From: Halichondria panicea
Taxonomy: Eukaryota; Porifera; Demospongiae; Suberitida; Halichondriidae
Reading direction: 5' to 3'
NCBI RefSeq assembly: GCF_963675165.1
Contig: NC_087393.1
Span: forward strand, 1,803,502 to 1,867,501
DNA: 64,000 nucleotides
Shown here: positions 3,409 through 49,494 of the stretch, one piece after another
How the letters are laid out: the number at the start of each line of letters is the position of its first letter
How positions within the stretch are numbered: position 1 is the stretch's first letter
Notes under the pieces: generated by a model
Seen by the model: only the letters and a program-made list of their open reading frames with translations
The model's database searches: none
Told to the model about the DNA's origin: nothing
Position numbers and translations under genes: made by a program

Positions 3409-4712
<1,304 letters not shown>

Positions 4713-44145: not shown

Positions 44146-45328
44146 ATGTCGTCAGAGGTACCAGTAATTGTTATTCACAATGGAAGCTTTATGTCTGAAG
44201 TTGGATTCGCTGGAGACGACTATCCAAAAGCTGTCTTTCCTTCAGTTGTTGGAAGGCCCCGTCACATTGACCCTGCCAGAGTTGGTACGGCCGATATAGA
44301 CTGCTATGTTGGAGATGAAGCATACACACAGAAACCCATCCTCTCTATTAAGAATCCAGTAGAGCATGGAGTGTGTTTCAACTGGGGTGACATGGAAAAG
44401 GTATTAACAAAATTAATGTGTTCGTGTCTTAGATAATAATTTTTTATTCTGTATATAGCTATGGCATCATACATTCTACAATGAGCTGCGTGTTGCCCCC
44501 GAGGAACATCCAGTTTTAGTGACTGAGGCTCCCCTAAACCCAAAGATAAACCGTGAAAAGATCACGCAGATCATGTTTGAAACATTCAATGTTCCAGCCT
44601 TGTATGTTACTAGCCACCCTGTTTTATCTCTGTATGCCTCTGGACGCACCACTGGTATCGTGTTTGATTCTGGTGATTCTGTATCCTACAGTGTGCCCGT
44701 TTATGAAGGTCATGCTCTTCCCCATGCAATCACCCATTTACATTTAGCTGGACGTGATCTGACCGACTACCTCATGAAGATCCTCACCGAGCGTGGCTAC
44801 TCTTTCACCACCACTGCCGAACGTGAGATCGTCCGTGACATCAAGGAGAAGCTCTGCTACGTTGCTCTTGACTTCAAACAGGATATGGGAACTGCTGCCT
44901 CCATCGAGAAGAGCTATGAGCTCCCAGACGGACATGTGATCACTGTCGGAAATGAGCAGTTTTGTTGCCCTGAGGCTCTTTTCCAGCCCAACCTCATCAA
45001 TATGGACTGTAGTATTCAACAGAGCTGCGCAAACTGCTTTCTCTCTCTACTTCGATACGATTGTGAATATCGTTATGATGATTTGTGCTCAACCATATCT
45101 TTGTCAGGGGGCAACACTATGTTTTCGGGATTCGCCGAACGAATACAAAAAGAAATTACACTGCTTCTTCCCCCTGGTCCAAAGATCAAAGTTATACCTC
45201 CTGTCAAGCACTCCTCTTGGATTGGAGGGTCTATTGTAGCTTCTCTGTCAACTTTTAATCAGATGTGGATATCAAAAGACGAGTATGATGATTTTGGACC
45301 AGGAATTGTCTTTCGCAAGTGCTTTTGA
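44146..45328 (+). CDS. Divergent actin paralogue 1 (374 aa)
   Basis: Exons 44146-44400 and 44459-45328, with the intron at exactly the same codon boundary as in the actin at 3460. The frame is complete and ends in FRKCF. The first phosphate loop reads HNGSF in place of DNGSG, so the cation-associated Asp and the loop Gly are lost. The second loop is DSGDS in place of DSGDG. The EHG His is kept. The C-terminal half is strongly changed ([16 protein letters not shown] region). By contrast, 44747-44902 is almost identical in DNA to actin 4126-4281, with about 5 mismatches in 156 bp, as if copied by gene conversion. It is probably expressed under constraint, since there are no stops in 374 codons, but polymerisation or ATP use may be altered. 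Codon bias is weaker than in the true actin. Confidence 0.88.
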
Positions 45329-45869: not shown

Positions 45870-47152
45870 ATGTCTGCAGAGGATTGGTACGACTACGAGC
45901 CACTAGTATTGGACTTTGGCTCAAACACGACTAGGATGGGATTTGCCGGGGAAGATGCGCCAAGAATCTCCATTCCTACTGTCACTGGAAGATATTGGTT
46001 CAGGGGTGGGGTTACTGGATTTGCAAAGGATGTATACTGTGGTGATGAGGTGAACCAACAGCCAATGATTCTCGCACCAAATCATCCTATTGAGCGTGGT
46101 GTTGTTACCGACTGGAAGGATTTCTTCTCGGTAAGCAATCTCTGCATGCATGTCTTTACAACATTTAATTTATATGATGAAACACCTTGAGGGGGAGGGG
46201 CTAAACGACCATTTTACACTATTAGCTTTATAATTGTAGAGTGATCGATGCCATGCATTATAAATTGATTATGCAGATATGGAATCATGCCACGCGGTAT
46301 GAGCTTAGTGTTGCCCCTGAGGAGCACCCTGTCCTGCTCACTGAGGCTCCCCTTAACCCCAAGGCCAACCGTGAGAAGATGGCTGAAGAGCTTTTTGAGG
46401 ATGGTATTGGACACTTGCAAATTGCGAATCAAGCGGTACTCTCTTTGTACTCCACTGGTAAAATCAATGGTGTGGTTTTGGATTGTGGGGATGGTTCCAC
46501 GAGAGCAGTGCCAGTATATGATGGCTATGCAGTCAAAGATGCTAGTCACGTTGTTGATTTGGCTGGAATTGACCTGACGGAAAAGTTACAGAAAATAATT
46601 TCAAAAAGTGGATACAATATAGCCAAGTCTATTCGGAATTATAAGTTGGAAATTAGCTTGGTACGAGATATCAAAGAGAAGCTCTGTTACATTGCTATAG
46701 ATGTGGACAAGGAAGTGAAAACTGCTAATTTTTGTACGCCAAGTATCTACAAGCTTCCAGATGGAAAAGAAATTGTTCTTGGTATTGAACGGTTCCAATG
46801 TCCCGAAGGTCTCTTCCAACCGTCATTGCTTGGTAAAGAATGTGCTGGTATTCACACCATCCTAAACGAATCCATCACAAAATGTGATGCTGTTTTTCAA
46901 AAAGAACTGTATTCCAACATTGTTCTCTCTGGAGGTACTACACTGCTCCCAGGATTTGTTGAACGGATGCGGAATTGCTTGGCTCAACATAAAACTGACT
47001 TCAACATCACTGTACCAAGAGAACTGAAACACTCTGTATGGCTCGGAGGTTCAATCCTTGCCTGTCTCTGTAACTCTCAAAAGTCCATGTGGATATCTAA
47101 GCAAGAGTATGATGAGTACGGCTCATCTATTGTTCACAGCAAGTGTTTCTAA
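45870..47152 (+). CDS. Divergent actin paralogue 2 (378 aa)
   Basis: Exons 45870-46130 and 46277-47152, 1137 bp in total. The start MSAEDW was chosen because it aligns with actin N-termini; an in-frame upstream ATG exists at 45819. The first loop reads DFGSN and keeps the Asp. The actin YPIEHG block becomes HPIERG, losing the His that is methylated in actins. Residues around [14 protein letters not shown] replace the usual FTTTAEREI stretch. The end is VHSKCF. A patch at 46310-46381 is about 92% identical to actin DNA, while flanks are much more divergent. The intron position is shared with the other two actins. It is an actin-family protein of unknown role, and not a clear orthologue of a named Arp. 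Confidence 0.85.
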
Positions 47153-47376: not shown

Positions 47377-49494
47377 TCACAAGTGAAGTTTCCTATAATA
47401 TTGAGGTGTGAACAAACAAACATCACATGCCATCGTTATAATCATACCTGGTAATAATTTCTCCTTCAAATAGTATCTCAGTTGCCTTTGTATCATACAT
47501 AGTTTTCCACTTCTTGTGCTTCTTCATGTAGACCACCTCCTTAATTCCTGCACGGTATATCCTCACACCATCCCTGGCGGATGGGTAGGAAGTGGTGTAG
47601 AGAATGGAGTCCTTTGTTGGATTATGCTTCTTCCGAGCATCATCTATAGCTTCAACTGCTGCATGTGTGACTGCACATGTGTGTGCATGCGAGTGTGTGG
47701 TGCTTCGTTAAGAGACCCTAGCTTGTGACATGTATGGAGTACCTGATATCTATGTGCATGTATATGTACCACCTGGACCCATGCTTTTGCTGACATGTCA
47801 CAATCACCCCAGTTTTTAAATGCTAGTCAACAGTGTGATAATTATGTATTTTCATAACAACTTTTCGGTAAAATACGAGCCAGCACACATACCATAAGGT
47901 GTTTTTGTCTGCCATCGATTTTTTGCTTTGCTATTCCAAGGCAACCCTTTCTTTGGTAGGTCGTTGTAACCTTCACCAACAATCTCTCCGTGAGCATTTA
48001 CCAGAATTGCTCCAACCTTTTAGGAGGGTAAGACTCAACATGTACAGCTGCAGGGAATTGCTACACTGCATTTACAAACCTTAGTTTCTGGGTCATTGCT
48101 CTTCTTGGCTACCTCAAGAGCTCGCTCCAAACACTTTTTGTCATTTCCGATTGCCAGTGTAGCTTCTATTTCATCTTCATCTTCATTTTCATCCGGGCTG
48201 TCATCACGTTGTAAAGAAGTACCTGCGTTATAATCATAATGTCACATGTTGTACTCATCACCAGGTGCGCATAAAGGGAAGGAGCATCTATAACTCTCTA
48301 CAGTCACTACCGTATAGCAGGTATATATATTCCGAGGGTGTAAATGTTCGCGGTTTTCGCTGATTCAGCATGTACCACGAACATATAAACCCACGAATTT
48401 AAAAGACTGCTATTTTGCGAAAACCTTTCCAACGGTCATTCTGCGAAAGTTGATACCCTCGAAATATATCTGCTACATATCTATACGGTAGCTGTTGTCT
48501 AAGTAGTGTATGCAACATTTATCTGAATATCATTACAAGTGCATGTACTGGTAACGATATTCACAACTATATACCATAATTATGGAGACATTTTGTCAAA
48601 CCACTTAGACAACAGCTAGCTCTTCTACACAGTTAGATGCTCATGTCGTCACCAGGAGCCCATAAGAGAAGGAGCGGCTGACTACGGGGATCACGTTTCG
48701 TAAGTGGTTATGACCGCATTTCCATATATGCAGAGTCACTTAAGTGGTTGAATCCCTACACGTGTTATACGCAATACAGGGCTGCGGTTTGCAAGCACTT
48801 AGTCGCTTCCAAACAAGGAAGTGTGGTTTCACCGGCAATTACGAGACGTGATCCCCGAGTATACGTTGAAGTTAGCCGCTCCTTCTCTTATGGGCTCCTG
48901 CGTCACCTAGCTAATAAACAACTCAATTTCTAATGCTCCCCGTGGGGCTTCAAAATCTGTCCTTATAATCAATGGAGTATTTAAATACATATTGACCTCA
49001 CCAAGTTTTGGACGTTTTGCTGGCGGAGGCTGGTTACTGCGACAAAATAAAGAGCCATATGAATTGATAGACAGAATATGCATAGATCTACATTATCATG
49101 TAGCTAGTAAACTGCACCTTTCGCCTTCATGAGAAGTTGATTGTATGGGTGATGCTTGATGTGATTTACAGCTAATTGGTTCTTTCACCCACCCTAAGGT
49201 AGAAGTGTAATTAGACGACTCACTCCAGAAATGCCGCATTTTAAACTCAGAAACTTTTTGTATGTGGTCAATGCCAATATTGATCCTCTCAAGCATTTTA
49301 ATGAGGTCATCCAAACTTTCCTCGGTCATTTTTAGAGTTTCTTCAAGCTTCGCTAGCATGTTAGCCCTTGTAGGGGTACCCTTTACGGGCAGAACCATAG
49401 CAAGACTGCTTATCTGGTCATCTTCTAAGCTTCTCTCAAACTTGCGGAGGAAACCACTCAATTCACTTGTATTAGGGCTGTTAGGACTAGCCAT
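47377..49494 (-). CDS. Death-effector-like domain fused to a catalytically dead dCMP-deaminase-like domain
   Basis: Six exons: 49494-49118, 49036-49002, 48222-48080, 48016-47893, 47670-47448, 47392-47377. They sum to 918 bp, 305 residues, with matching phases throughout. Residues about 10-85 form an all-helical death-fold pattern most like a DED (FLRKFERSLEDDQISSL, then LEETLKMTEESLDDLIKMLE). A linker carries PPAKRPKL, close to the c-Myc-type NLS. An acidic run (DENEDEDE) follows. The C-terminal half matches dCMP deaminase: VGAILVNAHGEIVGEGYNDL, TPYVTHAAVEAI, YPSARD and AGIKEVVYM, ending RKLHL. In human DCTD the equivalents are CHAELNAI and FPCNEC. Here the catalytic Glu is Ala and both zinc Cys are gone, so deamination is not expected. 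A binding or regulatory role linked to death-fold signalling is inference. The start could also be the in-frame ATG at 49509. Confidence 0.78.
48309..48492. mobile_element. MITE in intron 2 of the death-fold/deaminase gene
   Basis: CTACCGTATAGCAGGTATAT at the left and ATATCTATACGGTAG at the right are inverted. The interior has TTCGCGG/CGAAA blocks. Same family as 51360-51585. Confidence 0.65.
48648..48908. mobile_element. MITE with ~35-bp inverted ends in intron 2 of the death-fold/deaminase gene
   Basis: GTCACCAGGAGCCCATAAGA is answered at the right by TCTTATGGGCTCCTGCGTCA, with AGAAGGAGCGGCT and GGGGATCACGT blocks also inverted. A similar single left end lies near 48259. Confidence 0.7.

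Follow-up and report, generated by a model that had tools for sequence, protein, structure and literature searches.

Fusions of a pseudoenzyme with a death-fold domain are few and informative. FLIP(L) has been called the only human pseudo-caspase (PMC7586951). DCTDs have been reported to form ring hexamers, and their allosteric response to dCTP and dTTP is assigned to a G(Y/W)N(A/G) motif (PMC12088426). In Amphimedon, Death-like/TRADD-N units whose tails vary and include nucleotide enzymes have been described as a large theme (PMC8195603). Here we describe a gene, DPD1, in which a DED-like N-terminal domain is joined to a DCTD-like domain devoid of its catalytic residues. Among the papers listed by text searches of open-licence PMC, none describes such a protein in its title or the start of its abstract. 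DPD1 lies in a stretch of 64,000 nucleotides from Halichondria panicea (C17:1803502-1867501), referred to here as the window, and the comparisons below draw on the genome to which the window belongs (131 Mb, 39 contigs). Our results point to a retired enzyme that has been put to new use in signalling. The genome also encodes an intact DCTD, which offers a ready control, and an early-animal link between nucleotide metabolism and cell death would become testable.

Gene structure and the deaminase half

Between 49494 and the TGA at 47377 the DPD1 gene forms a single open frame of six minus-strand exons with GT/AG borders and compatible phases. The first-pass annotation had given six phase-matched exons and a product of 305 residues, and we reproduce this when exon 1 ends at 49118; an end at 49193 gives 280 aa. 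Both ends appear equally compatible with the sequence, which does not tell them apart. The features are as follows.

49193..49494, minus strand: exon 1, with the start codon and the helical DED-like domain (49118 being the other possible end)
49240..49467, minus strand: DED-like domain, approximately residues 10-85, placed by hhalign against the DED profile of the same genome
49002..49036, minus strand: exon 2, basic linker NQPPPAKRPKLG, from the spliced gene model
48653..48900, no strand given: inverted-repeat element, MITE-like, in intron 2 and outside the gene proper
48080..48222, minus strand: exon 3, coding for an acidic linker and for helix 1 of the pseudo-deaminase
47893..48016, minus strand: exon 4, with VGAILVN, GYND and TPY|V; borders at the same places as in the DCTD of this genome (by eye)
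47448..47670, minus strand: exon 5, catalytic region without catalytic residues
47657..47665, minus strand: HAA replacing HAE, the proton-shuttle Glu gone
47570..47584, minus strand: PSARD replacing PCxxC, both zinc Cys gone; R-D in all four copies
47377..47392, minus strand: exon 6, KLHL and stop; R| border as in DCTD and the paralogues

The basic linker of exon 2 we take to be NLS-like, as judged by eye against the consensus; a PPPAVKKR stretch resembling it is present in the N-terminal tail of the genome's own DCTD. The element in intron 2 has 31-nt arms that are 97% complementary and an inner second pair (48685-48706 / 48836-48857). Elsewhere in the window, three actin-family (PF00022) frames lie on the plus strand at 3774-4709, 44459-45325 and 46226-47149 (E 2.4e-117, 1.1e-90 and 2.7e-82), the last of which leaves a gap of some 230 bases to the DPD1 3' end.

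Single-protein searches of the genome identified three tandem paralogues on the minus strand at C17:567.4-572.2 kb, DPD2, DPD3 and DPD4, each with a helical first exon, a DCTD-like half and internal introns as in DPD1. A MAS start is common to DPD1 and DPD2, and DPD4 starts MAA. DPD3 (C17:569463-570644) contains no ATG in frame at the position corresponding to the start of DPD4 and may therefore be damaged or begin elsewhere; it was read from its first in-frame codon, with no start codon. The linker reads PPAKRPKL in DPD1 and PPPRKL in DPD2; DPD3 and DPD4 carry just an RKK stretch there. No convincing fifth copy was found in searches of the genome with the DPD1 and DPD3 deaminase halves, the DPD1 and DPD2 N-domains and the genome's own DCTD, and we did not count the stray matches on C16 (E=0.36) and C2 (E=3.6) as copies. 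Since a search of the genome with PF00383 missed DPD1, short diverged exons can escape, and four copies is a lower bound.

The DCTD-like nature of the second half, also part of the first-pass annotation, is borne out by a Pfam scan, in which PF00383 matches DPD1 with E=5.5e-13 (49.1 bits against a cut-off of 25), and by a match to human DCTD (2w4l) with E=1.4e-16. Two other family assignments, both to weaker or partial relatives in the deaminase superfamily, were rejected: MafB19-deam, which scores 27.4 bits where the cut-off is 27, and the NCBIfam anti-phage dCTP deaminase, which has E=2.8e-14 but only 52.8 bits against a cut-off of 400.

The changes from HAE to HAA and from PCxxC to PSARD are both seen as claimed. 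The corresponding motifs are HAA/PSSRD in DPD2, NSA/PANRD in DPD3 and HSA/PANRD in DPD4, so that no copy has the catalytic Glu or either zinc Cys, and all four have R-D where the compared DCTDs have E/D-C. DPD3, possibly a damaged copy, has NSA where DPD4 has HSA. The further claim that exactly those residues had been lost does not hold. We defined 23 columns as invariant across four DCTD sequences (the catalytic Glu column falls outside these because one PDB sequence carries Gln there); DPD1 retains 15 and has lost eight, of which the zinc Cys are only two, and nine of the 23 persist in every DPD. Apart from the two zinc Cys, the residues that each copy lacks are the GYNG Gly, the HAExN Asn and a Lys and a Gln in the helix following PCxxC. 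VG(A/S), GYN and the YV ahead of His are retained in every copy.

None of the four DPDs has the allosteric G(Y/W)N(A/G) of DCTD, the motif reading GYND, GYNF, GYNR and GYNR in DPD1 to DPD4, respectively. The fourth position is Gly in the genome's own DCTD, in human DCTD and in ten of ten bacterial and viral relatives. These relatives, from one scan each with exon 5, were confirmed at eight loci among 169 pattern matches in bacterial and archaeal genomes and at two among 18 in viral contigs, and GYNG, HAExN (with HAE) and PCNEC are intact in all ten that were fetched. The DPD genes are almost certainly non-catalytic, and we infer from the sequence that deaminase activity is missing. A DPD hexamer is only putative, because DCTD-conserved positions beyond the catalytic ones have been lost.

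The genome's own DCTD, on C6 (about 5889116-5891257), is intact, with CHAE and PCNEC. Three of its introns, with exon borders taken by eye from translated frames, coincide with those of DPD1: one ahead of VGA, one inside PYG|V and one following the R that precedes the last exon. We take these coincidences as strong evidence that the pseudo-domain is a DCTD duplicate. In a tree of eight sequences, in which two of the DCTDs are short fragments, the DPDs split from the DCTDs with UFBoot 97. Given this separation and the R-D common to all four copies, a single loss after which the new residues were conserved is the simplest reading, and the three catalytic residues, the Glu and the two zinc Cys, most likely disappeared in one event that preceded the divergence of the DPDs. 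We have high confidence in the four-locus layout and in the origin from DCTD. Further PF00383 matches occur on C3, C15 and C6/C27; those at C6:6270253-6270570 and C27:6325-6642 (a 57-kb contig) score identically and perhaps represent one place that is present twice in the assembly.

Relationship of the N-terminal domain to DEDs

The DED-like character that the first-pass annotation assigned to the N-terminal domain survives in part: profile comparison agrees with it, while a Pfam match above the cut-off and a close resemblance between DPD1 and its paralogues do not appear. In the Pfam scan none of the four copies reaches the PF01335 cut-off. PF01335 DED is the sole family listed for DPD2 (E=0.0036, 17.9 bits against a cut-off of 35.9, profile positions 2-81 of 82), and just weak, unrelated families are listed for DPD1, DPD3 and DPD4. 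A Death-like/TRADD-N adaptor was likewise absent from the Pfam scan of the DPD1 protein.

In an hhalign comparison, a profile of the four copies scored 97.4% against 16 DEDs of the same genome and 2.9% against 21 of its CARDs, and the DED and CARD profiles scored 3.7% against each other. The references had been picked by hand beforehand, as 16 of 30 DED loci (full length, with fewer near-duplicates) and 21 of 25 CARD loci (some near-duplicates being kept), and five of the 16 DEDs are themselves under the Pfam cut-off. By this profile-profile comparison, which covered DED and CARD, the N-domain is closer to DED. Taken singly, DPD1 to DPD4 score 65, 94, 90 and 95% against the same DEDs, values that none of 200 shuffles reached in any case, and reversed N-domain sequences score only 0.3-2.7%.

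The place of DPD1 within this group is less clear-cut. Its N-domain scores 8.5% over 24 columns against those of DPD2-4 (a score reached by none of 300 shuffles), its pairwise global scores with DPD2, DPD3 and DPD4 are matched by 18, 83 and 157 of 1000 shuffles, respectively, and a search of the genome with it found no match but DPD1 itself. Adding DPD1 to the profile of the trio raised the score against DEDs from 52.5 to 59.6. In a search of PDB with the four-copy profile, eight of the 15 sequences listed, including the top two, are viral or cellular FLIP DEDs. This listing is weak (best E=0.19) and the eight FLIP matches represent just the cellular and the viral kind of FLIP; no death domain or CARD protein is named among the 15. 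The DPD2 N-domain alone found no DED in PDB.

The E/D-RxDL sequence has been described as a DED motif (PMC4558505). By eye, its D is kept in all four copies and the R and L positions differ. A single-sequence structure model of exon 1 is of low confidence (pLDDT 71, pTM 0.38), and as the best-modelled stretch (residues 43-99) forms a single long helix and no death fold, it lends the DED no support.

On the profile comparisons, the N-domain of the DPD2-4 trio is a divergent DED. That of DPD1 is probably, although not provenly, a DED itself, and we consider it likely that it is a DED of common origin with the N-domains of the paralogues; a single DED gain in the family is suggested.

Selection and the integrity of the genes

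The deaminase halves of DPD1 and DPD2 are 48% identical with no stop, at a dS of about 2.1, which is near saturation and makes the ratio of about 0.2 a rough one. In neutral simulations (200 runs each) identity was at most 39, 26 and 13% at d=0.6, 1 and 2, with an average of 5.5-6.3 stops, against none in DPD1/DPD2. For DPD3/DPD4, dN/dS is 0.51 in the deaminase half (bootstrap 0.30-0.93, with 1.4% of replicates at or above 1), 0.55 over the whole length (bootstrap 0.38-0.86), 0.41 in the linker (0.09-1.73) and 0.72 in the N-domain (0.34-1.71, an interval that includes 1). The DPD2/DPD4 ratio for the N-domain, at saturated dS, is about 0.18, which suggests constraint on the N-domain as well. 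Judged from these sequences, the deaminase half is under purifying selection and neutral evolution is rejected, so that retention of this half by selection, as first proposed, is upheld by the simulations for DPD1/DPD2 and by dN/dS for DPD3/DPD4.

These results bear on several other ways of accounting for the locus. The helical exon and the deaminase exons might belong to separate genes that the model has mis-joined, and intron 2 is indeed 779 bases long and contains a repeat element. However, the same exon order recurs in three tandem paralogues whose introns are mostly short; separate transcripts are therefore disfavoured, and we reject the mis-joining as exceedingly improbable. The possibility that the DPD genes are duplicates on their way to becoming pseudogenes draws on DPD3, which has no in-frame ATG where DPD4 starts. 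It is opposed by the open frames of DPD1, DPD2 and DPD4 (280, 339 and 304 codons), deaminase dN/dS below 1, and an identity in DPD1/DPD2 that neutral runs do not approach even at d=1; neutral decay is rejected on the simulations and dN/dS, and we regard it as highly unlikely. It is also conceivable, though unlikely, that DPD1 and the tandem trio acquired different helical N-domains, that of DPD1 not being a DED. The low score between the DPD1 and trio N-domains, the failure of the genome search to connect them and the lack of a Pfam DED for DPD1 would fit such independent gains, but the DPD1 domain alone matches the genome's DEDs beyond all shuffles and strengthens the trio profile when added to it, and the genes have an identical exon order and a shared start.

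Possible function and comparison with known systems

We propose that a duplicate of the DCTD gene acquired an upstream DED-like exon, giving rise to at least four DPD (DED plus pseudo-DCTD) genes, and that the catalytic centre was lost and the deaminase fold thereafter held by purifying selection. The pseudo-deaminase may then bind a partner or multimerise and so hold the DED in place or cluster it, and the DED in turn would connect to the genome's own FADD-like and tandem-DED caspase machinery. DPD might promote or restrain the assembly of caspases, much as FLIP(L), a pseudo-caspase, acts on caspase-8. We favour this reading, a non-catalytic scaffold or regulator in a DED-caspase network, at about even odds. 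That the pseudo-deaminase is under death-fold control, in the words of the first-pass annotation, is likewise something that we infer.

The genome has 33 DED matches (E<=10), 33 caspase-domain matches (E<=0.001, some of them fragments) and at least 150 Death-domain matches. At C7:1623085-1623814 a DED in two pieces (1623085-1623429) is followed by a Death match (1623677-1623814), a FADD-like candidate as read from coordinates. Pairs of DEDs at C10:859830-860339 and 2922809-2923384 lie, by their coordinates, about 1.9 and 0.8 kb from same-strand caspase domains, and the regions C10:859830-862894 and C10:2921362-2923384 are candidate caspase-8-like initiators, as read from coordinates.

The first-pass annotation had suggested a nucleotide-sensing or scaffolding role. 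A sensor of the nucleotide pool would be a dead deaminase whose former active or allosteric site still accommodates a (d)NTP, a change in the multimer exposing or clustering the DEDs and leading to death or defence. VG(A/S), YV and GYN are retained in all four copies, the pocket-lining role of VGA being mapped from V340-G341-A342 of CDADC1 (PMC12088426), and dCTP binding is reported to stabilise DCTD hexamers (PMC12088426). A bacterial defence enzyme is reported to sense dTTP (PMC12265719), and death-like domains with nucleotide-enzyme tails have been reported in Amphimedon (PMC8195603). Nevertheless, the allosteric motif ends in D, F, R and R, and this, together with the further shared losses of the HAExN Asn and of the Lys and Gln in the helix after PCxxC, weakens nucleotide sensing, the more so as GYNG, HAExN and PCNEC are intact in all ten fetched relatives; we consider such a sensor unlikely. 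The more specific version, in which a multimer of the dead dCMP deaminase that depends on a nucleotide, or on a viral protein of nucleotide metabolism, nucleates DED filaments, reads the deoxynucleotide pool and sets off caspase-dependent death, is very unlikely. If true, a death sensor of the deoxynucleotide pool would be an animal counterpart of bacterial nucleotide-sensing defence. A FLIP-like inhibitor, whose single DED caps caspase-8-like DED filaments while the dead deaminase acts as inert bulk or stabiliser, would match the layout of FLIP(L), a DED with a dead enzyme (PMC7586951, PMC4558505), and the DED matches of the four-copy profile in PDB are FLIP DEDs. Yet the enzyme half has long been conserved, and inert bulk would need no such upkeep; moreover, FLIP has tandem DEDs and a pseudo-caspase, whereas DPD has one DED-like domain and a pseudo-deaminase. 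We give this inhibitor only a small chance. Alternatively, DPD might be a nuclear regulator that works outside caspase control, in which a DED is followed by a basic linker and by a second half that binds DNA or protein. DEDD and DEDD2, which would be the model for it, carry a nuclear signal, and DPD1 has the PPAKRPKL linker, but this reads PPPRKL in DPD2 and is a mere RKK stretch in DPD3 and DPD4, and it may derive from the N-terminal tail of DCTD. From the sequences such a regulator seems quite improbable.

The preferred reading, a DCTD duplicate turned into a non-catalytic partner of a DED-like domain, can be set beside the closest known systems. With DCTD (human 2W4L) the DPDs share the fold by sequence, GYN, the YV before the active-site His and, with the DCTD of the same genome, three intron places; the HA of the DCTD active site is kept in two of the four copies. 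They differ in the loss of the catalytic Glu, both zinc Cys, the HAExN Asn and the GYNG Gly and in the gain of a DED-like domain, and in DPD1 the C-terminal tail is shortened to four residues. The N-terminal domain of vertebrate CDADC1 is similar in being a naturally inactivated DCTD-like domain in a non-catalytic role, but its PCxxC and zinc persist and its fusion partner is a working deaminase (PMC12088426). DPD1, by comparison, retains no zinc ligand except His and is fused to a DED-like domain. Identity with CDADC1 itself is rejected by layout, as DPD1 has one deaminase domain and CDADC1 two in one chain, the second of them active. DEDD and DEDD2 are alike in their single DED (PMC4558505) and differ in having no deaminase. 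The Death-like/TRADD-N proteins of Amphimedon also have a death-fold N-terminus, some with a C-terminal PNPase or HD; the excerpted text of that report names no deaminase among the tails (PMC8195603), and the enzyme domain of DPD is dead. FLIP(L) likewise combines DED with a dead enzyme half (PMC4558505, PMC7586951), but with two DEDs and a caspase fold, where the DPDs combine a single divergent DED-like domain with the fold of a deaminase.
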